From: Holdemania sp. Marseille-P2844
GTDB lineage: Bacteria > Bacillota_I > Bacilli_A > Erysipelotrichales > Erysipelotrichaceae
Assembly (NCBI RefSeq): GCF_900120005.1
Contig: NZ_LT635449.1
Span: 124,001 to 188,000, forward strand
Direction: 5' to 3'
DNA length: 64,000 nucleotides
Every line of letters begins with the position of its first letter. Within the stretch, counting starts at the first letter, position 1. Position numbers and translations under genes: made by a program. Below the pieces are notes generated by a model, which was not told where the DNA came from, did no database searches, and saw only the letters and a list, made by a program, of their open reading frames with translations. Shown in pieces: positions 97 to 12,629 of this stretch.

Positions 97-909
97 TTAT
101 AACAGACCGATCAGCGTTCCGATCAAACCGAACGCAAAGATTGCCAGAATCACCGTATTGACCTTGACGCCCTTGCGGATCGCACCGAAGGCTCCCAGCG
201 TCAATAAGAGCGGCAGAATCTTCGGCATGATCTGATCGAAGACCTCCTGCAGCACCAGCGTTGTTTCGCCGATCTGCGCTGTAAACCCAACGTTGAACGT
301 CACCATCGTCGCGATCATCGCACCGACCGTCGTCAAGCCGATCACCGTCGCCAGCTTGGTCATGTGCTGAATCAGACCGTTTTCATACGAAGTCTGAATA
401 AACTTCGAGCCCAGCTGATAGCCCCAGATCGTGCAGTAATACCGGATGATCAGATGCGGCACGTTGAACAGAAGCAAGAACAGGATTGGGCCGAGAATGC
501 TGCCCTGCTGCGCCAGCGAAATCCCGACGCCCGCCGCAATGACGCGGAAAGTTCCCCAGAAAAACGAGTCCCCGATGCCCGAAAGCGGCCCCATCAGGGA
601 AACCTTGACCGCATTGATCGTCGAAGGATCCATATCTTTTTTCTCGGCGTATTCTTTTTCCATCGACGCGGCCATGCCTAACGAGAACGTGCAGATGTTC
701 GGTGTGATATTGAAGAACGCGGTATGCCGTTTCAGCGCTTCGACTTGTTCCTGCGGCGTTTTGCAATAGAGCTTGATCGCCGGGAACATCGCCCAGGCAA
801 AGCCCAGCGCCTGCATCTTTTCATAGTTGAACGAGCCTTCCAAAGCGAAGGAGCGCCAAAACAGCTGGCTGATCAGTTTTTTCTCATCGGATTTCATCAC
901 GTTACTCAT
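97..909 (-). CDS. PTS mannose/fructose/sorbose family, IID component (operon 1)
   Basis: Membrane subunit of a mannose-family phosphotransferase permease, which with IIC moves a sugar across the membrane while IIB phosphorylates it. The 270-residue product shows the family features: a basic, Leu-Phe-rich amphipathic N-terminus, a central stretch reading MGPLSGIGDSFFWGT, and hydrophobic C-terminal segments. I chose the ATG at 909 rather than the upstream one at 939 because an AGGAGG lies 10 bases before it, its N-terminus matches the paralogue at 7985, and it gives an 8-base overlap with the IIC stop, the same as in operon 2. It is the last gene of regulator-IIA-IIB-IIC-IID. The substrate cannot be read from sequence. 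Confidence 0.93.
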   Translation of the reverse strand: MSNVMKSDEKKLISQLFWRSFALEGSFNYEKMQALGFAWAMFPAIKLYCKTPQEQVEALKRHTAFFNITPNICTFSLGMAASMEKEYAEKKDMDPSTINAVKVSLMGPLSGIGDSFFWGTFRVIAAGVGISLAQQGSILGPILFLLLFNVPHLIIRYYCTIWGYQLGSKFIQTSYENGLIQHMTKLATVIGLTTVGAMIATMVTFNVGFTAQIGETTLVLQEVFDQIMPKILPLLLTLGAFGAIRKGVKVNTVILAIFAFGLIGTLIGLL

Positions 910-1699
910 TGAAGAACGCCTCCTCTTCACTTTGGGCATCCGGCTGCGCCGCCATCCGCGGAGTGCGGGATGCGCTGATATCCTGAACGATCATGACGAT
1001 CCCGATCGTCGCCGCAATGCCGGCAATCGCGATAATCGGCAGATTCAGATAGACTGATAAAATGAAGCCGAAGAACAGAAAGACGCACAGCCGGTTATCC
1101 CAAAGCATGTTCATCAACAACGCGAAGCCGACAGCCGGCAGCATCTGGCTGGCCGCGCCCAGGCCGGTGATGATGATCGCCGGGATTTTTTTGACCAGCG
1201 CCTGCATCGCTCCAGCTCCAAACTGCAGCGAAACAAACGCGATCAGGCCGTACAGCGCGGCATACAGCGCACAGTGACCGAAATGGAAGCGCGTGATCTT
1301 CCCAAAATCGCCCGCTTCGGCGAATTCCTCGACCTTGTGCATCGTCGTCGCACGGAAGAAATAAACGAGATATTTGACCATCTGCTGAAGAATTCCGATC
1401 GGAACCGCCAGCGCCAGCGCGATCTCTACGCCCTGATGCATGCTCATGGCGAAGGCCGTGCCCAGCACCGACCCCATGTTGGAATCCGACGGTGTTGCGC
1501 CGCCGATCGACACCACGCCTAAGAAGATCAGTTCCAGCGCCGCGCCCATGATTAACCCTTGTTGTAAATCGCCGAGGATCGCACCAACTAACGGAGCCAG
1601 AACAATCGGCCGGTTAACCATGACGTTGCCGCCGATATCCCCCGCCGCCTGACCGGCTGCCGCCACCAGGGCGATCAGAAGTGCTTGAACCAGTGTCAT
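902..1699 (-). CDS. PTS mannose/fructose/sorbose family, IIC component (operon 1)
   Basis: Integral membrane subunit (265 residues) forming the sugar channel of the permease. The protein is almost wholly hydrophobic, with several predicted membrane helices, and carries the family block LNRP-like NRPIVLAPLVGAILGD near residue 30 and a Gly-rich GAALELIFLGVVSIGG stretch near residue 55. It begins 12 bases after the IIB stop and overlaps IID by 8 bases, so the two membrane subunits are probably translationally coupled. The paralogue at 7978-8778 is close to it along the whole length, apart from the N-terminal and middle parts, which have drifted. Confidence 0.93.
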   Translation of the reverse strand: MTLVQALLIALVAAAGQAAGDIGGNVMVNRPIVLAPLVGAILGDLQQGLIMGAALELIFLGVVSIGGATPSDSNMGSVLGTAFAMSMHQGVEIALALAVPIGILQQMVKYLVYFFRATTMHKVEEFAEAGDFGKITRFHFGHCALYAALYGLIAFVSLQFGAGAMQALVKKIPAIIITGLGAASQMLPAVGFALLMNMLWDNRLCVFLFFGFILSVYLNLPIIAIAGIAATIGIVMIVQDISASRTPRMAAQPDAQSEEEAFFNE

Positions 1700-1711: not shown

Positions 1712-2212
1712 CTATTTCCGGACGTTTTTCAACGCCTCTTTGACCTGAACCTTGTTGCTCGTCGGGATCATCTGAATTTCAAACGGCAGACCGGCCGCCA
1801 GAATTTCTTCGATCGCCGCGATGTCCGCGTCGTCGACATAGACTTCCTTGGTCATCATCATCCGGTCCCCTTTGTCGATCCGCCCGCTGTTGCCGATGTT
1901 GACCCGTTCGATGACCGACTTGTCTTCAATCTTTTGCAGCAAACGCGCCGCATCGACCGGATTTTTCATCACGACCAGAATGTTCATGCCCGCCGCACGG
2001 GGATCGTTGATCAGCTTGGCCGCCTCGTCGATCGTCTTGATCAGCAGCTTCAGATGCTCCGGCACCGCCAGCTTCATCGCCAGGCTCTGGATCGGATCCG
2101 TCACCAGCTCATCGTTGGCCACAATGATGCCCTTAATGTTCAGCTGTTTCGTCCACATAAACACCACCTGTCCATGCAGCAGCCGATCGTCAATCCGCAG
2201 CATTTTAATCAT
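1712..2212 (-). CDS. PTS mannose/fructose/sorbose family, IIB component (operon 1)
   Basis: Cytoplasmic phosphocarrier of 166 residues that takes phosphate from IIA and passes it to the incoming sugar. The active-site motif DDRLLHGQV is near the N-terminus, with His13 the expected phosphorylated residue. The start is taken as the ATG at 2212: an in-frame GTG at 2218 sits only one base after the AGGAGG, whereas the ATG has a 7-base gap. It lies between IIA (78 bases upstream) and IIC (12 bases downstream) in the operon. Confidence 0.93.
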   Translation of the reverse strand: MIKMLRIDDRLLHGQVVFMWTKQLNIKGIIVANDELVTDPIQSLAMKLAVPEHLKLLIKTIDEAAKLINDPRAAGMNILVVMKNPVDAARLLQKIEDKSVIERVNIGNSGRIDKGDRMMMTKEVYVDDADIAAIEEILAAGLPFEIQMIPTSNKVQVKEALKNVRK

Positions 2213-2290
2213 TGTCACGCCTCCTTTCTTTTTTATCCTCCGGATCGCTCCGGTGAATTTCCTTGTTGTTTCCGGAATGTTTCTGCCGCG

Positions 2291-2704
2291 TCAGAACAGT
2301 TCGTCTTCCGTTTGCGGACAAGCCAGGACGACATTGCCGTAGATCATCCCCTGCCGGGCTTCCGCCAGCGCCGCAGGGATCGCCTGGGCCAGCGGTTCAG
2401 GGCTCAGACACAGCTGCAGCACCAGATTCAGATTCATCCCCGCGACGATGTGCACGCGCGGATCCTGCGCCAGGGCAAGCAAGGCGTTGTTGACGCTGCC
2501 GCCCCACAGATCGGTCAGAATCAGAAATTCGTCAGCCGTCCCTGCCGTCAGCCGTTCTTCGATCTGACGCTTTAAGCAATCGGGATGACTGCCGGGCAAT
2601 AAGGCCAGCGTACTCAGATGCGGATCATCGCCGATGATCATCCGCGCGGTATCCGCCATGCCCGATGCCAGCGCGCCGTGCGAAGCCAGAATGATTTCTC
2701 TCAT
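2291..2704 (-). CDS. PTS mannose/fructose/sorbose family, IIA component (operon 1)
   Basis: Soluble phosphocarrier of 137 residues that accepts phosphate from HPr. The N-terminal strand ends in ASHG, with His9 the expected phosphorylated residue, followed by the family pattern GMADTARMI; a TDLWGGSVNNALL segment around residue 70 matches the rest of the fold. Two ATG codons are adjacent (2707 and 2704); the second has the better spacing from AGGAGG and aligns with the paralogue. It starts 18 bases after the regulator gene stop, so regulator and permease genes form one transcript. Confidence 0.93.
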   Translation of the reverse strand: MREIILASHGALASGMADTARMIIGDDPHLSTLALLPGSHPDCLKRQIEERLTAGTADEFLILTDLWGGSVNNALLALAQDPRVHIVAGMNLNLVLQLCLSPEPLAQAIPAALAEARQGMIYGNVVLACPQTEDELF

Positions 2705-2722
2705 CATTTTTCCTCCTGAAAA

Positions 2723-5489: not shown

Positions 5490-5570
5490 ATTATAGGATA
5501 TTCACCCGATTTGTCTTTACATTCATCAAGTTTCAACACTGACTGCCTAAATTCAGATCGTTTTGGCACT
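5490..5570 (-). promoter_or_regulatory. promoter and paired operator-like boxes of PTS operon 1
   Basis: On the minus strand there is a TATAAT at 5490-5495 and an AAGACA at 5512-5517, 16 bases apart. A box AGTGTTGAA lies at 5532-5540, and a degenerate copy (AGTGCCAAA) at 5562-5570. The same elements occur with identical spacing before the operon 2 regulator. No -24/-12 sigma-54 element is seen in this orientation. Confidence 0.7.
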
Positions 5571-5790
5571 GGCAGCTACGCTTTTCATCAGTGACGAATA
5601 GCTCAGATTGGTGACGACAACGCTCATCTCCATGAAAGCTCAGCCCTTTTTCATTTCCATTGTACGTGAATCTCCCCGCTCTGTCGCTGTGCGGCCTGAG
5701 TTTAACATTTGAAAAAAACTGGTTTCCATGACGGATTTACCAGTTTTCAATTCGATCTCAGTTTAAATAAGTTCATGATCTCCGCAAATT
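5571..5790. other. non-coding gap between the two PTS operons
   Basis: About 220 bases between the operon 1 operator boxes and the terminator of the nagA operon. I see no gene, RNA or convincing promoter here; a weak TTTCAG-rich patch near 5740-5765 has no clear role. Confidence 0.5.
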
Positions 5791-5838
5791 AAAAAACTGA
5801 AATCGGCCTTCCTCTTCAGCCTGATTTCAGTTTTTGAA
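5791..5838 (-). terminator. intrinsic terminator of the PTS operon 2 / nagA transcript
   Basis: A long stem pairs AAAAACTGAAATC-GGC with GCC-TGATTTCAGTTTTT, with one bulged base and an 11-base loop. On the minus strand it ends in TTTTTTAATTT. The A-rich left arm may let it work in both directions. Confidence 0.85.
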
Positions 5839-5960
5839 GAAATCAACAGAGCTATCCATTATCCTTTTTCAGCGGCGCAGTCATACTGCTTCACTATTTC
5901 AGAATGAAACAAAATAAATCCCGAGAAACGCCTCTGCCAAAGCAAGATTACAGCGGCGTC

Positions 5961-7157
5961 TCATTGTAACTGATCTATGAACCGCGGATTAACCGTGGCT
6001 TCCTGATGATAATCATATACGCATACGCCGTTCACATAGGTCTGGATCAGACGATCCTCGTCATCCAGAATGATGAAATCGGCGTCCATTCCCGGAAGCA
6101 GCTTCCCTTTTGTCGTTAAACCGAATAATGCCGCCGGATTCTCAGATGTCATTTTCAGAATTTCAGGAATTGACTTGTGGAGCTTTCGATAACAATTACG
6201 AACACCCTGAAGCATATTGGTTACACTTCCCGCCAAAACGCCATCGTCAAGCACGAGCTTCCCTTCCTCCGTCACAGTATAATGCCGCCCCTTTTCATAG
6301 TAATTTCCTTGCGGGAGTCCGGACAGGGATTCTGAATCGGAAATCATGATAAATTTTCCCATTCCTCCTTTTTTAATTCTGAACATCATTTCCAGCACTA
6401 CCTGCGATACATGCACAAAGTCGCAGATGACCTCGTTATACAAAGCCTCTGAAAGCAATGCGGCGCCGAAAGCTCCGCCATCCCGGCGGTCAATCGGAGA
6501 CATCGCATTCCCCGTATGCGTTGAGGTAGATAAGCCTAAAACAATCCCTTTGTTATAGGCTTCAAAGGTAGCGGTCGTATGACCGCCTGATAACAGAATA
6601 TGATGATTCTGACATTCGCGCATCAAGCTTCCTTCAGGATCCATTTCAGGCGAGATGGTCATATACTTCAGATGCCCGCCGGCTGCAGAAATATAAGAAC
6701 GGAGTTTATCGACAGAAGGCTCGCATAATTGACTCAGTGCGAAACCACCTTTTTTTGCCGGATTCAGAAAAGGCCCTTCCATATGGATTCCAAAGATCTG
6801 CGCCTCATCCTTAATCTCCGTCCGCCTCTGTTCATCAATAACGCTTGCCAAAGCAGAAAGATTCTCATACTCCTTATCAAAATGTTCGCCGGCTGTCGGA
6901 AAAAATCCAGTAACCCCGATTGAGGTCATTGCCCTGGCTAAACCATGCAATTCTTCAGGATCCGCAGACTGAGCGGAATAACCCAAATAACCATGCGTAT
7001 GAATGTCAATCAGTCCCGGCAAAATCTTATTTCGCTTGAAATGATCTTCGCCTGACTGTAAATCTGGATAAAGGCCAACAATTTTCCCATCCTTGATTTC
7101 CAGCGTTCCCTTTACCGCTCCCTGGGGCGTCCAGATTTCACAGTTTTCAAATTTCAT
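5961..7157 (-). CDS. nagA: N-acetylglucosamine-6-phosphate deacetylase
   Basis: Predicted amidohydrolase of 398 residues that removes acetate from N-acetylglucosamine-6-phosphate to give glucosamine-6-phosphate. Visible family marks are HTHG (His53 and His55), HMEGPFLNPAKKG with the metal-binding Glu near residue 128, GGHTTAT near 195, HTGNAMSP near 215, and the catalytic Asp in MISDSES near 272. It starts 12 bases after the IID stop, making it the last gene of PTS operon 2, which suggests that this permease imports an N-acetylated amino sugar as its 6-phosphate. Operon 1 has no such gene. The HTGNAM motif differs slightly from the commoner HLYNAM form, so a related acetylated sugar substrate is possible. 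Confidence 0.88.
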   Translation of the reverse strand: MKFENCEIWTPQGAVKGTLEIKDGKIVGLYPDLQSGEDHFKRNKILPGLIDIHTHGYLGYSAQSADPEELHGLARAMTSIGVTGFFPTAGEHFDKEYENLSALASVIDEQRRTEIKDEAQIFGIHMEGPFLNPAKKGGFALSQLCEPSVDKLRSYISAAGGHLKYMTISPEMDPEGSLMRECQNHHILLSGGHTTATFEAYNKGIVLGLSTSTHTGNAMSPIDRRDGGAFGAALLSEALYNEVICDFVHVSQVVLEMMFRIKKGGMGKFIMISDSESLSGLPQGNYYEKGRHYTVTEEGKLVLDDGVLAGSVTNMLQGVRNCYRKLHKSIPEILKMTSENPAALFGLTTKGKLLPGMDADFIILDDEDRLIQTYVNGVCVYDYHQEATVNPRFIDQLQ

Positions 7158-7169
7158 AAGTCATTGTCC

Positions 7170-7985
7170 TTACAACAGACCGATAAAAGTACCTAACAAT
7201 CCGATAACAAAGATCGCGATGATCAGGGTATTCACCTTAATTCCTTTCCGGATCGCATAGAAGACAGCCATCGTTAAAGATAGCGGCAGTAAATTCGGCA
7301 TGATTTGATCGAAGATCTCCTGAACTACCAATTCCATTTCGCCAATTTGAACGGTCAAACCGACATTAAGGCTCACCATTGTGGCAATCATGGCGCCCAC
7401 GGTCGTCAAACCGATGACGGTCGCCAGCTTGGTCATGTGATGAATCAGACCATTTTCATAGGATGTCTGAATAAATTTTGACCCCAGGACATAGCCCCAG
7501 ATCGTGCAATAGTAGCGCAGCACTAAATGCGGCACATTAAACAATATTAAGAACAGAATCGGGCCCAAGACATTGCCCTGCTGAGCCAGCGAGATGCCCA
7601 CGCCCGCCGCGATGACGCGGAAAGTTCCCCAGAAAAAGGAATCGCCGATTCCGGAGAGCGGCCCCATCAAGGAAACCTTGATCGCATTGATCGCAGCGGG
7701 ATCCATCGTTTTTTTCTCAGCAGCCTCTTTTTCCATGGACGCCGCCATGCCGAGTAAAAACGTGCTGATATGCGGAGTGATATTGAAAAAAGCGGTATGT
7801 CTCTTTAAAGCTTCGACCTGTTCCTCCTGAGTCCCGCAAAATTCATGGATCGCCGGAAACATCGCCCAGGCAAACCCCAAAGCCTGCATTTTTTCAAAGT
7901 TAAACGAACATTCCAAAGCAAATGAGCGGTAAAACAACTGACGGGTTAGCTTCTTCTCCTGCGGAGTGATTTCAAATTTACTCAT
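7170..7985 (-). CDS. PTS mannose/fructose/sorbose family, IID component (operon 2)
   Basis: Second IID membrane subunit, 271 residues, nearly parallel to the product of 97-909: both share MQALGFAWAMFPAI, the MGPLSGIGDSFFWGT block and long identical stretches in the C-terminal half. The ATG at 7985 overlaps the IIC stop by 8 bases. The closeness to operon 1 points to duplication of the whole operon, followed by moderate divergence. Its neighbour downstream is nagA, 12 bases away. Confidence 0.93.
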   Translation of the reverse strand: MSKFEITPQEKKLTRQLFYRSFALECSFNFEKMQALGFAWAMFPAIHEFCGTQEEQVEALKRHTAFFNITPHISTFLLGMAASMEKEAAEKKTMDPAAINAIKVSLMGPLSGIGDSFFWGTFRVIAAGVGISLAQQGNVLGPILFLILFNVPHLVLRYYCTIWGYVLGSKFIQTSYENGLIHHMTKLATVIGLTTVGAMIATMVSLNVGLTVQIGEMELVVQEIFDQIMPNLLPLSLTMAVFYAIRKGIKVNTLIIAIFVIGLLGTFIGLL

Positions 7986-8778
7986 TAAAGAATTCCTCCT
8001 CTGCCTGATCCTGGCCCTGCGGCAAACTGATCTCCGGTTGTTTACGGTTATGGCTCATATCCTGAACCACCAGCAGAACGCCGATCGTTAAAGCGATACC
8101 GGCGATCGCGATGATCGGCAGATTGAGATAAGTCGCTAAAATAAAGCCTAAGAACAACAAAACACAGAGCCGATTATCCCAAAGCATGTTCATCAGCAGC
8201 GCAAATCCGACAGCCGGAAGCATCATGCTTGCCGCATCCAGCCCATCCAATATAACCTGAGGAATCTGATCGACAAGATTCCGCATCAATTCAACGCCGA
8301 ATTGCAGGGAAGCAAAGGCGATGAAACCATAAATAATCGCAAAAATCAGAATGCTTCCAAAATGCAGCCGCGTAATCTTATTGAATTGCCCCTGTTCAGC
8401 ATAAACCTCGACTTTCGACATCTGGGTAGCACGGATGAAATAAACTAAATACTGCACCATTTGCATTAATAACCCGATCGGTACCGCCAGCGCTAAAGCA
8501 ATTTCCACGCCCTGATTCATACTGATCGCAAACGCTGTGCCCAATATGGAGCCCATCGTTGAATCCGAAGGCGTCGATCCGCCGATTGAAACAACGCCTA
8601 AGAAAATCAATTCCAAGGCAGCTCCCATAATTAACCCTTCATACAAATCACCGAGAATAAACCCCACGATCGGCGCCAAGACAATCGGCCGGTTTAACAT
8701 CAGCCCGCAGCCGCTTTCAGTTATTAATAAGCCGCCAAAAGCAACGAATCCAATCAAAATAGCCTGGAATAGTGTCAT
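7978..8778 (-). CDS. PTS mannose/fructose/sorbose family, IIC component (operon 2)
   Basis: Second IIC membrane subunit, 266 residues, with the same NRPIVLAPIVG block and GAALELIFLGVVSIGG stretch as operon 1 and multiple hydrophobic helices. Differences from the operon 1 copy cluster in the first 25 residues and around residues 130-180, which could reflect a different sugar. It starts 12 bases after IIB and overlaps IID, the same spacing as in operon 1. Confidence 0.93.
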   Translation of the reverse strand: MTLFQAILIGFVAFGGLLITESGCGLMLNRPIVLAPIVGFILGDLYEGLIMGAALELIFLGVVSIGGSTPSDSTMGSILGTAFAISMNQGVEIALALAVPIGLLMQMVQYLVYFIRATQMSKVEVYAEQGQFNKITRLHFGSILIFAIIYGFIAFASLQFGVELMRNLVDQIPQVILDGLDAASMMLPAVGFALLMNMLWDNRLCVLLFLGFILATYLNLPIIAIAGIALTIGVLLVVQDMSHNRKQPEISLPQGQDQAEEEFFNE

Positions 8779-8790
8779 TGTTTCTCCTCC

Positions 8791-9291
8791 TCACTTCCGG
8801 ATGCTTCTTAAAGCATCTTTAACATTGACTTTGTTGTTTGTTGGAATCATCTGGATATCAAACGGCAGTTCATAGCTCAGAATTTCCTGAATCGCTTCAA
8901 TATCGGTTTCATCAACATAGACTTCCCGGGTCATCATCTCTTTGTTTCCCTTGTCAATCCGGCCGCTGTTTCCGATATTAATTCGCTCGATCAAGGTTTT
9001 ATCCGGCAGTAATCGAAGCAATCTCGCCGCGTCGGCCGGACTTTTCATCACCAGCAGAATGTTCATTTTAGCGGAACGTGGATCCTGAATCAGCCGGGAG
9101 GCTTCTTCAACGGATTTGATCAACAGTTTAATTTGTTCTGGCACTGCTAATTTCATGGCCAGACTCTGGATTGGATCCTGGACCAGCTCGTCGTTGGCCA
9201 CGATAATCCCTTTGATGTTAAGCTGTTTCGTCCACATGAATACGACTTGTCCATGCAGCAGCCGATCGTCAATCCGCAGCATTTTGATCAT
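8791..9291 (-). CDS. PTS mannose/fructose/sorbose family, IIB component (operon 2)
   Basis: Second IIB phosphocarrier, 166 residues, with the same DDRLLHGQV motif and His13 as the likely phosphorylated residue. The ATG at 9291 has AGGAGG seven bases upstream; the in-frame TTG at 9294 is less likely. Most of the sequence is identical to the operon 1 IIB, with changes concentrated in the C-terminal third. Confidence 0.93.
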   Translation of the reverse strand: MIKMLRIDDRLLHGQVVFMWTKQLNIKGIIVANDELVQDPIQSLAMKLAVPEQIKLLIKSVEEASRLIQDPRSAKMNILLVMKSPADAARLLRLLPDKTLIERINIGNSGRIDKGNKEMMTREVYVDETDIEAIQEILSYELPFDIQMIPTNNKVNVKDALRSIRK

Positions 9292-9347
9292 CAATTTCCC
9301 TCCTTTCTCATTTGAAGTTCACTGGAAAATATCCAGTTCATTCCTTT

Positions 9348-9764
9348 TTAAAACCAGGATTCCTCTTGCGGAATCTCGTTTAATTTAGCGTTGCCGTAGA
9401 CCATTGACTTCTGCGCTTCATTCAGAATGGATTCGATGGCCATGCCGCCGGTTTCCACATCGCTCAAGCACAGCTGCAAGACTAAATTCAGATTCATCCC
9501 GGCAATCAAATGAACATTGGCATCCGCGCAGAGAGGAAGCAAGGCGGTATTGACGCTGCCTCCCCAAAGGTCGGTTAGAATTACCGTTAATTCGCCAGGC
9601 CAGGATTTGATCATTCCTTCCACTTTTGTTTTGAGCAGTTCCGGCTGCATTCCCGAAACCAGGGACAGCGGAATCAGCTCTGTCTGATCTCCAACGATCA
9701 TTCTGGCCGTATCGGCCATGCCTTCGGCTAACCGGCCATGTGAAGCTAAAATCAATCTTTTCAT
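9348..9764 (-). CDS. PTS mannose/fructose/sorbose family, IIA component (operon 2)
   Basis: Second IIA phosphocarrier, 138 residues, starting KRLILASHG with His9 as the expected phosphorylated residue and the GMADTARMI pattern. Its ATG overlaps the stop of the regulator 3' frame by four bases (ATGA), so its translation may be coupled to that frame. This matters because the regulator frame is reached only if the upstream frameshift is bypassed. Confidence 0.93.
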   Translation of the reverse strand: MKRLILASHGRLAEGMADTARMIVGDQTELIPLSLVSGMQPELLKTKVEGMIKSWPGELTVILTDLWGGSVNTALLPLCADANVHLIAGMNLNLVLQLCLSDVETGGMAIESILNEAQKSMVYGNAKLNEIPQEESWF

Positions 9765-11527
9765 TCTGCCTCTCCTTCCAACTCTTTTTTATTAAAGGCT
9801 TCATCATTCGCGATATAATCATACAAATAAGATATTTCATCAATCGGAACGGTAACGTTATAGCTTTTCAATATCCGTTGGAAACTGATATGGACTTGAT
9901 CAATAAAATCCTGATGTTCTTTTTGAAAACGCGTTAAATCCGCCTGGGACTCAATCGCGGTTCTTGTCACAAGCCGCTCAATGAGAAAACTGACATGGAT
10001 GTAAATTCCCACAAGCGTCCGGCTTTGAAACCGGCAATGACGCTGCCGTTGAAGCTCGCTGACAGCTTCATAAACTGAATCCAGCAAATGTGCAGGATTG
10101 AGAATCGTGAGGTTTTCCATCAGACTTTGCAAAGAAAAATTCTTTAATAACTGCTGATGAAATTGATCCAGTTCCTCCTCGTTTAATTCATCCTGAAAGG
10201 CTTCCGATAAGGGCTGCAGGTTTCTGAATCCTACGATATCTTCTAAGGTTACTGAATTCACGCCATCCAGTTTCAAGCCTAACGGTTTAATTAAGAGGAC
10301 GACATGATATTGCTGAAAGCAATCGTCATTTTCCAATGTCGTCTTCAGTCTCGAATATTCGACCTCAATAAATTTGATATTGACCGGGCGCGGCAAAGAA
10401 CTGCGGAACAGTTCTGCCAATTTTCCGCTGACGCGGATTGAGATATCATTTGTGAATATAATAGCTTTAGGTTTTTCTGTTTGCCGCAGCAGTCGGTAAT
10501 GGCATTGATGGCTTTGACAAGCAGCGATGAGAATCGCTTCCATTTCTTCATTTTGTTTAATCCGATTCCCGACATCCAGTGCTAATCCTGTTGATATATT
10601 GTTAATAATTCCAATATCCATCTTTGAATTTAAGTGCTGGGCCATCGCTTCCAGTGAGCCCATGTCGACAAGAACCAACATTCCTTGATAATAAGAATGC
10701 ATCTGCAGGAATCGATCCAGTTGCTTTTCAATCGCGGCGACTTCAGTATCCAGCGGCATGTCAATGGCATCAAAAACCTGACTTTGCAATAACTGATTCG
10801 CGGCATCCGCAATACTGGACGCCGTGGAATAACCATGACTGATTATAATTCCGCATAACTGCCGGCCTTTTTCCTGCTGATTATAAAAACAGATATTCAA
10901 GGTAAGAAAGATAACGTTCAGCGGCTGTGTTTTGATTTCCAATGTAGTGCATAGCCGGGAAATCAATTCGTCGGCAAGTGAGAACGCCTGCGGCAGCTCC
11001 TGTTTCAAAGAATTCAGACAAGACTGGATCGAATCTCTCTGTTCGCTCTCCCAAACGGAAGCGCTGGTTTTCATTTGATGAAGAGAATCGATCATTCTTG
11101 CTAAAACAAAACTGCAGTTTAAGGGCAAGGTTAGCCTGGCATTGTCTTTCGCTTGATCAATCAACGTTTGAATTATATTTTCAATCGAACTGATCCGCGG
11201 ATTCTCTTCTTTTTGTTCAAAAACAATCATGTCATAATACTTCCGCATGATCTCCAACCCGTCCTTCAGAAAAGAATTGAAATGATGATGATTAAAAAAG
11301 TAATCCCGATGTGCTTCCAGCAACAGATCAAACAGATCGAAAATCTGATGACTGTCATTCTCAGGAACCAGTTCGTTGATCGTTAAAAAGACAAGTTCCT
11401 CTTTCAAGCCTTTCCATTCCAAAGGAATTTTCGATAACAAAGGTTCCGGCAAATAAACTCGCTTCAAGCACAGGCTTTGTGTCTTCTCCTGTTCAAAAAA
11501 GCATTGGCACACATCGTCCGAATACAA
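9761..11527 (-). CDS. LevR-like regulator of operon 2, 3' part (PRD, EIIA-Man, EIIB-like, PRD)
   Basis: C-terminal two-thirds of the second LevR-like regulator. It holds the first PRD-like region, the EIIA-Man-like domain with SHGYSTA, an EIIB-Gat-like region (FTNDISIRVSGKLAEL) and the C-terminal PRD with YIHVSFLIERL, all closely matching the regulator at 2723-5455. The first ATG (11527) has no Shine-Dalgarno and reads residues in the wrong frame for the family, so this is not a separate gene: it is the continuation of 11464-12510 after a -1 shift at 11494-11500. Joined at that point the product is 916 residues, against 910 for the intact paralogue. It may be a live gene with programmed frameshifting, a recent pseudogene, or a homopolymer sequencing error. 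Confidence 0.8.
   Translation of the reverse strand: MYSDDVCQCFFEQEKTQSLCLKRVYLPEPLLSKIPLEWKGLKEELVFLTINELVPENDSHQIFDLFDLLLEAHRDYFFNHHHFNSFLKDGLEIMRKYYDMIVFEQKEENPRISSIENIIQTLIDQAKDNARLTLPLNCSFVLARMIDSLHQMKTSASVWESEQRDSIQSCLNSLKQELPQAFSLADELISRLCTTLEIKTQPLNVIFLTLNICFYNQQEKGRQLCGIIISHGYSTASSIADAANQLLQSQVFDAIDMPLDTEVAAIEKQLDRFLQMHSYYQGMLVLVDMGSLEAMAQHLNSKMDIGIINNISTGLALDVGNRIKQNEEMEAILIAACQSHQCHYRLLRQTEKPKAIIFTNDISIRVSGKLAELFRSSLPRPVNIKFIEVEYSRLKTTLENDDCFQQYHVVLLIKPLGLKLDGVNSVTLEDIVGFRNLQPLSEAFQDELNEEELDQFHQQLLKNFSLQSLMENLTILNPAHLLDSVYEAVSELQRQRHCRFQSRTLVGIYIHVSFLIERLVTRTAIESQADLTRFQKEHQDFIDQVHISFQRILKSYNVTVPIDEISYLYDYIANDEAFNKKELEGEAE
11464..11502 (-). other. -1 frameshift site: U UUU UUG heptamer in phase
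   Basis: On the minus strand, positions 11500-11494 read T TTT TTG in the zero frame, the X XXY YYZ form used for -1 ribosomal slippage. Slipping here joins the 5' and 3' frames into one 916-residue protein. A 5-bp hairpin (ACAGG at 11492-11488, CCTGT at 11474-11470) begins two bases later; it is weak. The zero-frame TGA is at 11466-11464. Confidence 0.55.
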
Positions 11528-12510
11528 TTTTTCAACTCATGAATATTCAGCCCCAACGTATTACTTCCTAACAAGGTAAATAGAGATTGCGAAAGTCGTA
11601 TTTCGCAGTTTAATCTTTTTTGTTCCTGATTCAGAAGTACCCTTACTAATTGTTCCCGTTCTTCAGCCGGACGCTTTGTTAACGGCGGAATGCTGCAATG
11701 AACTGGTATGCTTAATAATAAATCCTGTCCCAAACATTCTAACGAAGGCGTATCCACCCCAAGGATTACCCGCGTTTGACTGCTGATGGGATGTTCTGAA
11801 TCTCCCATGCGGGTAAACTGTCCAGTGTTGATATAATCAGCGATCCTCTGCTGACATTCCAGGCTCATTTTATCGGCCTGTGAAAGATAAAGAAGACCGT
11901 TATGACATTTTTCGATAAAGCCTGTTTGTTTTTTAACAGAGCTGTGGATTCCGAAAAGATCTTCCAGCATTTTATCCGAGGTTTGTTCTGAATTAAATTG
12001 ATATGCGATAAAACAAGCTTTATCCATGACGCGATGTTGATTTTTTAAGAATTCAAAAGCAAGCCGGGCTAAAAATGTTTTTCCGCTTCCTCTTTCACCC
12101 TGGAGGATCACGGGCAACCCATGCGGATAAAGCATCGCAGCTTTTAACTGCGAAATACAATAGCCTAACGAACCATCCTCACCCACCGCGTTAAAAAAAT
12201 CCTGCGGCTCTTTCTGCTTCTGCTTTAACGCTTCAATTAAATCCGGCATATTGTAATATTCGTTATAGGTTAACGTCACGTTATACTTTTTCTCCAACTG
12301 TGTTTTATCGAAATAATAAACGGGTCTGGAGTTAATTTTGATACATCGCCCCAGTTTACACAATTCATTCAAATATTGGCTGGCTAAAGAACGGCTGATA
12401 TTTAAAGTATTGGCAATATTGCCGGTGGACATCGCTTTTAAAAAGTCAACGCCATGACGGCAGGTTAGATCTTCTACGATTTTCTGAATTTCTTTCTGCG
12501 TTTTTTTCAT
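11464..12510 (-). CDS. LevR-like regulator of operon 2, 5' part (HTH and AAA+-like region)
   Basis: N-terminal 348 residues of the second LevR-like regulator: helix-turn-helix (about 1-60, ending in NSRPVYYF), then an AAA+-like region with an intact Walker A (GERGSGKT near residue 140). The Walker B site is degenerate (GLLYLSQADK) and no GAFTGA loop is present. The frame ends at a TGA at 11464, about ten codons after a run of six T residues where the paralogue carries on. If the shift is not corrected, the cell would make a DNA-binding and AAA+ fragment without any PTS-sensing domain. The promoter and two operator-like boxes lie upstream at 12549-12629. Confidence 0.8.
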   Translation of the reverse strand: MKKTQKEIQKIVEDLTCRHGVDFLKAMSTGNIANTLNISRSLASQYLNELCKLGRCIKINSRPVYYFDKTQLEKKYNVTLTYNEYYNMPDLIEALKQKQKEPQDFFNAVGEDGSLGYCISQLKAAMLYPHGLPVILQGERGSGKTFLARLAFEFLKNQHRVMDKACFIAYQFNSEQTSDKMLEDLFGIHSSVKKQTGFIEKCHNGLLYLSQADKMSLECQQRIADYINTGQFTRMGDSEHPISSQTRVILGVDTPSLECLGQDLLLSIPVHCSIPPLTKRPAEEREQLVRVLLNQEQKRLNCEIRLSQSLFTLLGSNTLGLNIHELKNCIRTMCANAFLNRRRHKACA

Positions 12511-12548
12511 GGACTCACCACAGCTCTCTAAGGTTGACTTCTGTCTTC

Positions 12549-12629
12549 ATTATAAGCGTTGGAATAAAATTGTCTGAAACACCAGAGAACTTCAACACTG
12601 TTTAACAATTTTCATTTGTTTTCAACACT
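12549..12629 (-). promoter_or_regulatory. promoter and paired operator-like boxes of PTS operon 2
   Basis: The minus strand has a TATAAT at 12549-12554, a CAGACA at 12571-12576 (16-base spacer), and boxes AGTGTTGAA at 12591-12599 and 12621-12629, exactly 30 bases apart. The distances from the -10 to the AGACA element and to both boxes equal those in operon 1. Two TTAACAAT repeats (12602-12609, 12641-12648, plus strand) lie nearby. Confidence 0.72.

Follow-up and report, generated by a model that had tools for sequence, protein, structure and literature searches.

LevR of Bacillus subtilis, ManR, MptR and DagR are sigma-54 enhancer-binding proteins (EBPs) that join an N-terminal helix-turn-helix (HTH), an AAA+ domain, an EIIA-man domain and PRDs, and whose genes adjoin those of a mannose-family phosphotransferase system (PTS). 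In B. subtilis LevR, the PTS phosphorylates the EIIA and PRD histidines; the MtlR/LicR-type PRD activators of Bacillus are also phosphorylated by the PTS, have no AAA+ domain and activate sigma-A promoters. TyrR and DhaR of Escherichia coli, HupR of Rhodobacter and VpsR differ in domain composition and do not belong to the PRD regulators under PTS control. A passage of PMC3162934 presents these four as EBP relatives in which the GAFTGA motif is altered or deleted and the dependence on sigma-54 lost, and gives sigma-70 dependence for TyrR, DhaR and HupR. A published regulon reconstruction for clostridial LevR-type proteins considers sigma-54-dependent members (PMC6615313). Here we analyzed a stretch of 64,000 nucleotides from Holdemania sp. 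Marseille-P2844 (contig NZ_LT635449.1, positions 124,001 to 188,000; the window), in which two tandem paralogous operons, each led by a levR-like gene and continued by mannose-family PTS genes, carry the same promoter and box elements upstream. We put at roughly three in four the probability that the LevR-like protein activates its own operon from these upstream boxes, of consensus AGTGTYGAA, at a sigma-A promoter with a poor -35, both the binding and the activation being predicted from sequence and comparison.

The two window regulators can be assigned by homology to the LevR superfamily. They align over their full length (29–32% identity over ~900 aa) with the sigma-54-linked LevRs of the same genome, and the operon 1 regulator comprises an N-terminal HTH, a degenerate AAA+ domain without GAFTGA, and EIIA-man and PRD domains with phosphorylatable histidines (H559, H839); matches to solved structures were limited to the isolated EIIA and AAA+ domains. 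In both regulators the GAFTGA (or GAYTGA/GSFTGA) loop is deleted or replaced: where LevR has a stretch resembling LFGYxKGAYTGAEKDxxGLL, operon 1 reads LFGEEQEGTVRSGLI and operon 2 reads LFGIHSSVKKQTGFI. The D-E pair of Walker B is also absent from both (TE and SQ instead), and Walker A of the operon 1 regulator is GERGSGRR. By sequence, these proteins would not be sigma-54 activators, a feature that the sequence-only reading of this DNA had not seen; it is the missing loop for sigma-54 activation that gives meaning to a sigma-A promoter with boxes in front of their genes.

The loop is likewise deleted or replaced in 52 of 83 LevR proteins that we surveyed, the other 31 bearing it. The surveyed loci are partly related, hence not independent, and kinship inflates the significance of the comparisons that follow; their start codons were assigned by rule, and the labels of several loci, which are metagenome bins, are doubtful (e.g., L042). 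The Walker B pair is kept in 8/52 GAFTGA-less versus 31/31 GAFTGA-bearing proteins, and the arginine fingers (two arginines before I-P) are eroded across the GAFTGA-less group, which retains the EIIA histidine in 51/52 members, the PRD histidine in 52/52 and, strongly, the HTH recognition helix SR[ST]LxSQYLNEL. One branch of an unrooted tree splits loop-bearing from loop-less proteins, with 99% support in the Shimodaira–Hasegawa-like approximate likelihood ratio test (SH-aLRT). Single versus repeated loss of the loop depends on the root, and the GAFTGA-less subfamily may either descend from the sigma-54 activator LevRs or be their sister. The LevR of Caproiciproducens galactitolivorans (L051), with a GAFAGA loop, an intact Walker B, a box at 47 bp and a TATAATG promoter, is an apparent intermediate of the sigma switch, and no sigma-54 domain was found in its genome.

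Neither window operon showed sigma-54 elements upstream of levR or a -24/-12 promoter after it. Across the survey, a -24/-12 element (TGGCAC-N5-TTGCW, up to two mismatches; background ~1%) follows levR in 23/28 GAFTGA-bearing loci, typically in the gap between levR and the PTS genes, versus 1/37 GAFTGA-less loci. This gap has a median of 98 bp in the former versus 14 bp in the latter, the short gap being as expected for a single transcript. With one Holdemania RpoN as the query, which a distant rpoN could escape, rpoN was found within the fetched flank of 21/31 GAFTGA-bearing versus 0/48 GAFTGA-less loci. The sigma-54 DNA-binding domain was not found in 16 of 43 genomes chosen for carrying a GAFTGA-less LevR, three of them 99–100% complete and some others fragmentary metagenome bins, in whose case a missing domain is little evidence. 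The Holdemania genome itself has two sigma-54 genes (G000:C13:298478-298942 and G000:C11:322838-323287), each adjoining another LevR, of the sigma-54 type, and the genus counterparts of these two LevRs carry the loop as GAYTGA or GSYTGA; the two served as a reference from one and the same cell. The sigma-54 gene search gave three matches in H. massiliensis, and specialised sigma-54/LevR pairs in Holdemania are possible. The sigma-54-linked LevR on contig 13 (L006, G000:C13:294815-297535) has an in-frame TAG in this assembly; in L029 and L006, both sigma-54-linked levR genes, words resembling TTCGACACT are repeated at the 3′ end of the coding sequence, probably as a coding coincidence.

The elements upstream of the two window operons are listed in Table 1. 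The sequence-only reading had placed them at equal distances in both operons, and its coordinates all hold on the minus strand: AGACA lies 17 positions above each -10, and the proximal and distal boxes start 45 and 75 bp, respectively, from the start of the -10 hexamer. H. massiliensis has AGTGTCAGA where operon 1 has its degenerate distal box. Counterparts of the inverted box above operon 1 were seen at 102 bp in H. massiliensis and, by listed positions, in another genus (L068). Single boxes number 17 in the window (up to one mismatch) against 11.5 expected, a count that alone is not significant, and AGTGTYGAA-N36-38-TATAAT occurs twice versus 0 in 100 shuffles. In the 3.68-Mb Holdemania genome, AGTGTYGA-N37-39-TATAAT has two matches, both in these operons, with 0 for the reversed control; a search for further such sites across this genome found none. 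The exact pattern was rejected as a stand-alone regulon finder, as 60 relatives contain many scattered sites with no evident LevR link. The surroundings had been called otherwise unalike, which is true of the 36-bp spacer between the elements (14/36 identical and 8/30 without AGACAA, that is, chance level) but not of the 140 bp aligned on the -10, over which the two promoters are 46% identical without gaps. Given this identity around a spacer at chance level, the promoters look like diverged paralogues with kept elements rather than the product of convergence. The view that the elements are selected gains support from the comparison, since they persist over that spacer and recur in distant genera.

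Upstream regions were then compared for non-redundant genes, 41 GAFTGA-less and 28 GAFTGA-bearing. A motif-free k-mer enrichment returned AGTGTTGA (16/41 versus 0/28), AGTGTCGA (15/41 versus 0/28) and TATAATGA (11/41 versus 2/28). A position weight matrix (PWM), with consensus AGTGTYGAA, found sites in 34/41 versus 3/28 genes, and in 6.6/41 of composition-shuffled sequences. The carriers belong to Erysipelotrichaceae, Coprobacillaceae, Clostridium, Cellulosilyticum, Lachnospiraceae, Caproiciproducens, Collinsella and Olsenella, the boxes of the last two being weaker, so that the GAFTGA-less group with boxes spans Erysipelotrichia, Clostridia and Coriobacteriia. The LevR-like regulator, already named as the likely binder from the DNA alone, thus stays the best candidate by comparison as well, since the boxes track the GAFTGA-less subfamily and are nearly absent from GAFTGA-bearing LevRs. 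The encoded regulator would be the simplest binder because its recognition helix is kept, because the box travels with the regulator and not with the PTS genes, and because no other site in the genome has the exact pattern.

For the distances, exact TATAAT sequences were picked independently of the boxes. A box lies 45–47 bp upstream of TATAAT in 12 of the 19 loci having both (permuted mean 1.3, maximum 7 in 20,000), and additional boxes stand mostly at about 66, 76, 95, 107 and 119 bp above the -10. Of the 42 box-to-TATAAT distances in the range 30–125 bp, 34 match one of the six lattice values to within 1 bp, where a random position would do so in 19% of cases; the lattice was derived from the same data, and its significance is therefore only descriptive. 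Distances between boxes of the same promoter are phased at ~10.2 bp (R 0.59 versus a null of 0.21, 0/3000). Loci that were fetched later, and on which the PWM had not been trained, agree with these distances (L190 at 46 and 76, L193 at 67 and 118, L189 at 76 and 118 bp). Three genomes or loci, all from one genus within the same family and likewise unused in training, have a box at 95 bp, and the Clostridium pair L037/L038 has TATAGT or TATAGC at the predicted place of the -10.

The paired boxes had been interpreted as a dimeric activator site with a 30-bp interval. Their upstream position, at a fixed distance from a sigma-A type -10, agrees with an activator site, but the 30-bp dimer site as such does not generalize: alignment of relatives confirmed the boxes and their set distances to the -10, not a constant spacing between boxes. 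The 30-bp interval recurs in Holdemania, Clostridium and Cellulosilyticum, and the loci that show it include both Holdemania operons, L037, L039, L040 and L190; intervals elsewhere are 12, 20, ~50 or 61 bp, or the boxes form inverted pairs 12 bp apart (L011, L014, L062 and L102), mostly near multiples of ~10.2 bp. The box as a universal palindrome was dropped, most members having direct repeats. The -35 is poor (mean 3.1/6 matches versus 2.6 for shuffled sequences), and AGACA, proposed as a selected element, is kept by one group of relatives only, the (A/C)AGAC element being confined to the group of Holdemania, Clostridium cadaveris and Cellulosilyticum and to a few others. A box at fixed distance and phase above a promoter with a good -10 and a poor -35 points to an activator that touches RNA polymerase.

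In the mechanism that we propose, the phosphorylation state of the PTS, set by the presence or absence of the sugar, would determine the oligomeric or DNA-binding state of the regulator, presumably via phosphorylation of its EIIA and PRD histidines. The N-terminal HTH would bind AGTGTYGAA boxes along a single face of the helix, with the closest copy 45–47 bp above the start of the -10 hexamer. Bound there, the regulator would recruit RNA polymerase with sigma-A to a promoter that has a consensus TATAATGA but a poor -35. The levR, PTS and nagA genes would then be switched on together as one autogenously controlled operon, whose sugar we infer to be an N-acetyl amino sugar. Two observations would agree with sigma-A: TATAATGA at a fixed distance from the box, and several carrier genomes in which no sigma-54 domain was found. 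As the two window regulators share the recognition helix and the boxes, cross-regulation between them is likely, a point of some weight given the frameshift that the operon 2 regulator gene carries in this genome. One base differs from the H. filiformis counterpart near 11494 (minus strand), resulting in two overlapping frames, which is either a sequencing error or a real inactivation. On a larger scale, it is fairly probable that LevR relatives forming a large group across Erysipelotrichia, Clostridia and Coriobacteriia have exchanged the sigma-54 enhancer action for direct activation at sigma-A promoters. The control site, once between levR and the PTS genes, would have moved in front of levR, with a new one-face AGTGTYGAA operator at set distances from the -10, and the AAA+ domain would remain as an ATPase-dead scaffold between the PTS-sensing and DNA-binding domains.

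Several observations weigh against this account. The PWM was trained on the loci that it scores, and the independent test set is small. No recognisable boxes were found at the GAFTGA-less loci L043, L064, L075, L078, L109, L184, L185 and L192, and those at L072 and L056 are doubtful; with a minority of its LevRs lacking recognisable boxes, the box rule does not hold throughout the group. The PTS promoters divergent from levR (L106 and L084) showed no clean 46-bp arrangement.

The same protein might also bind the boxes and repress its own operon, with relief by sugar-dependent dephosphorylation. The autogenous location would suit such a repressor, as would the frequency of repression among PTS-linked regulators and the boxes of L102, 57–69 bp from the start codon. 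We nevertheless consider repression unlikely, since boxes above the -35, clear of the core promoter and at fixed distance and phase to the -10 of a promoter with a poor -35 form the layout of an activator, and the parent LevR family consists of activators. Binding of the boxes by another regulator common to these genomes is a still more doubtful proposition: the binding of LevR to the box is a prediction, and a third factor could have been inherited along with the operon, but it would have to account for boxes that track the GAFTGA-less LevR over three classes while being nearly missing from GAFTGA-bearing operons with the same PTS genes, and for an arrangement confined, in the Holdemania genome, to these two operons. 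A functionless relic of the tandem operon duplication, already disfavoured, could explain the paralogy and the residual identity over 140 bp, but it hardly accounts for elements that persist across a spacer of chance identity or for equal distances in remote genera. Autogenous activation by the LevR-like protein is therefore the reading that we retain.

Both operons have the minus-strand order levR-like, IIA, IIB, IIC and IID genes, with nagA-like genes in addition; operon 2 is terminated by nagA, and operon 1 comes next on the same strand. The start of the operon 1 regulator was set at ATG 5455 and not at that of the longer GTG open reading frame (ORF) because its orthologues begin there. This regulator shares 98% identity with a protein of Holdemania filiformis DSM 12042 and 85% with an H. 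massiliensis protein. Beyond the window, operon 1 appears to run into two more NagA-like genes (L194:3089-5539, minus strand), which resemble the operon 2 deacetylase.

Table 1 Promoter elements, boxes and genes of the two levR-led operons (positions in the window).
Feature	Position	Strand	Basis or remark
Operon 1 -10, TATAAT(GA)	5490..5495	-	Conserved in H. filiformis and H. massiliensis
Operon 1 AGACA, weak -35 (AAGACA, spacer 16)	5512..5516	-	AAGATT in H. massiliensis
Operon 1 proximal box, AGTGTTGAA	5532..5540	-	Starts 45 bp upstream of -10 start
Operon 1 distal degenerate box, AGTGCCAAA, 3 mismatches	5562..5570	-	30 bp above proximal box
Inverted box, AGTGACGAA	5590..5598	+	~103 bp upstream of operon 1 -10
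Operon 1 LevR-like regulator, 910 aa	2723..5455	-	Pfam, alignments
Operon 1 PTS IIA	2291..2707	-	ORF; IIA query in tblastn neighbourhood survey
Operon 1 PTS IIB	1712..2218	-	
Operon 1 PTS IIC	902..1699	-	
Operon 1 PTS IID	97..939	-	
Operon 2 -10, TATAAT(GA)	12549..12554	-	
Operon 2 AGACA, weak -35 (CAGACA, spacer 16)	12571..12575	-	
Operon 2 proximal box, AGTGTTGAA	12591..12599	-	45 bp upstream of -10 start; AGTGTTTAG in H. filiformis
Operon 2 distal box, AGTGTTGAA, perfect	12621..12629	-	75 bp upstream of -10 start
Operon 2 LevR-like regulator, N-terminal part (HTH, degenerate AAA+)	11464..12510	-	
Operon 2 LevR-like regulator, C-terminal part (EIIA-man, PRD)	9761..11527	-	
Operon 2 PTS IIA	9348..9764	-	
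Operon 2 PTS IIB	8791..9294	-	
Operon 2 PTS IIC	7978..8778	-	
Operon 2 PTS IID	7170..7985	-	
Operon 2 NagA-like N-acetylglucosamine-6-phosphate deacetylase	5961..7157	-	Above TIGR00221 cut-off

No description of the GAFTGA-less LevR group or of the AGTGTYGAA operator was found in open-access text (for the box string, among the top-ranked matches only), and a search for DagR gave no match there. Single EBP relatives with a switch to sigma-70 are on record; a GAFTGA-less LevR group with its own operator would be new, even if such a search is no proof of absence. The usual description of LevR-type proteins is as sigma-54 activators, and in many gut genomes members of the loop-less group would be mistaken for these. 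The analysis predicts which mannose-family PTS operons of gut bacteria run without sigma-54 and supplies an operator that can be tested. It also offers a traceable change of sigma factor, with parent and derived forms in one genome and an apparent intermediate (GAFAGA, Caproiciproducens), and the two forms lend themselves to comparison in their input domains, their promoter and their operator alike.

Compared with the LevR-ManR-MptR-DagR proteins, the window regulators have the same domains, with the HTH at the N-terminus, the adjoining mannose-family PTS and conserved EIIA and PRD histidines. Their group differs in lacking GAFTGA, a -24/-12 element, an adjoining rpoN and, for the most part, Walker B and the arginine fingers, and in the sigma-A type promoter and AGTGTYGAA boxes that precede the regulator gene. 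Unlike MtlR and LicR, they keep a degenerate AAA+ domain of the sigma-54 activator kind. They resemble TyrR, DhaR, HupR and VpsR in a probable descent from sigma-54 activators with an altered or deleted GAFTGA; those proteins are known singly, whereas here a whole group appears to have its own operator and phased layout.

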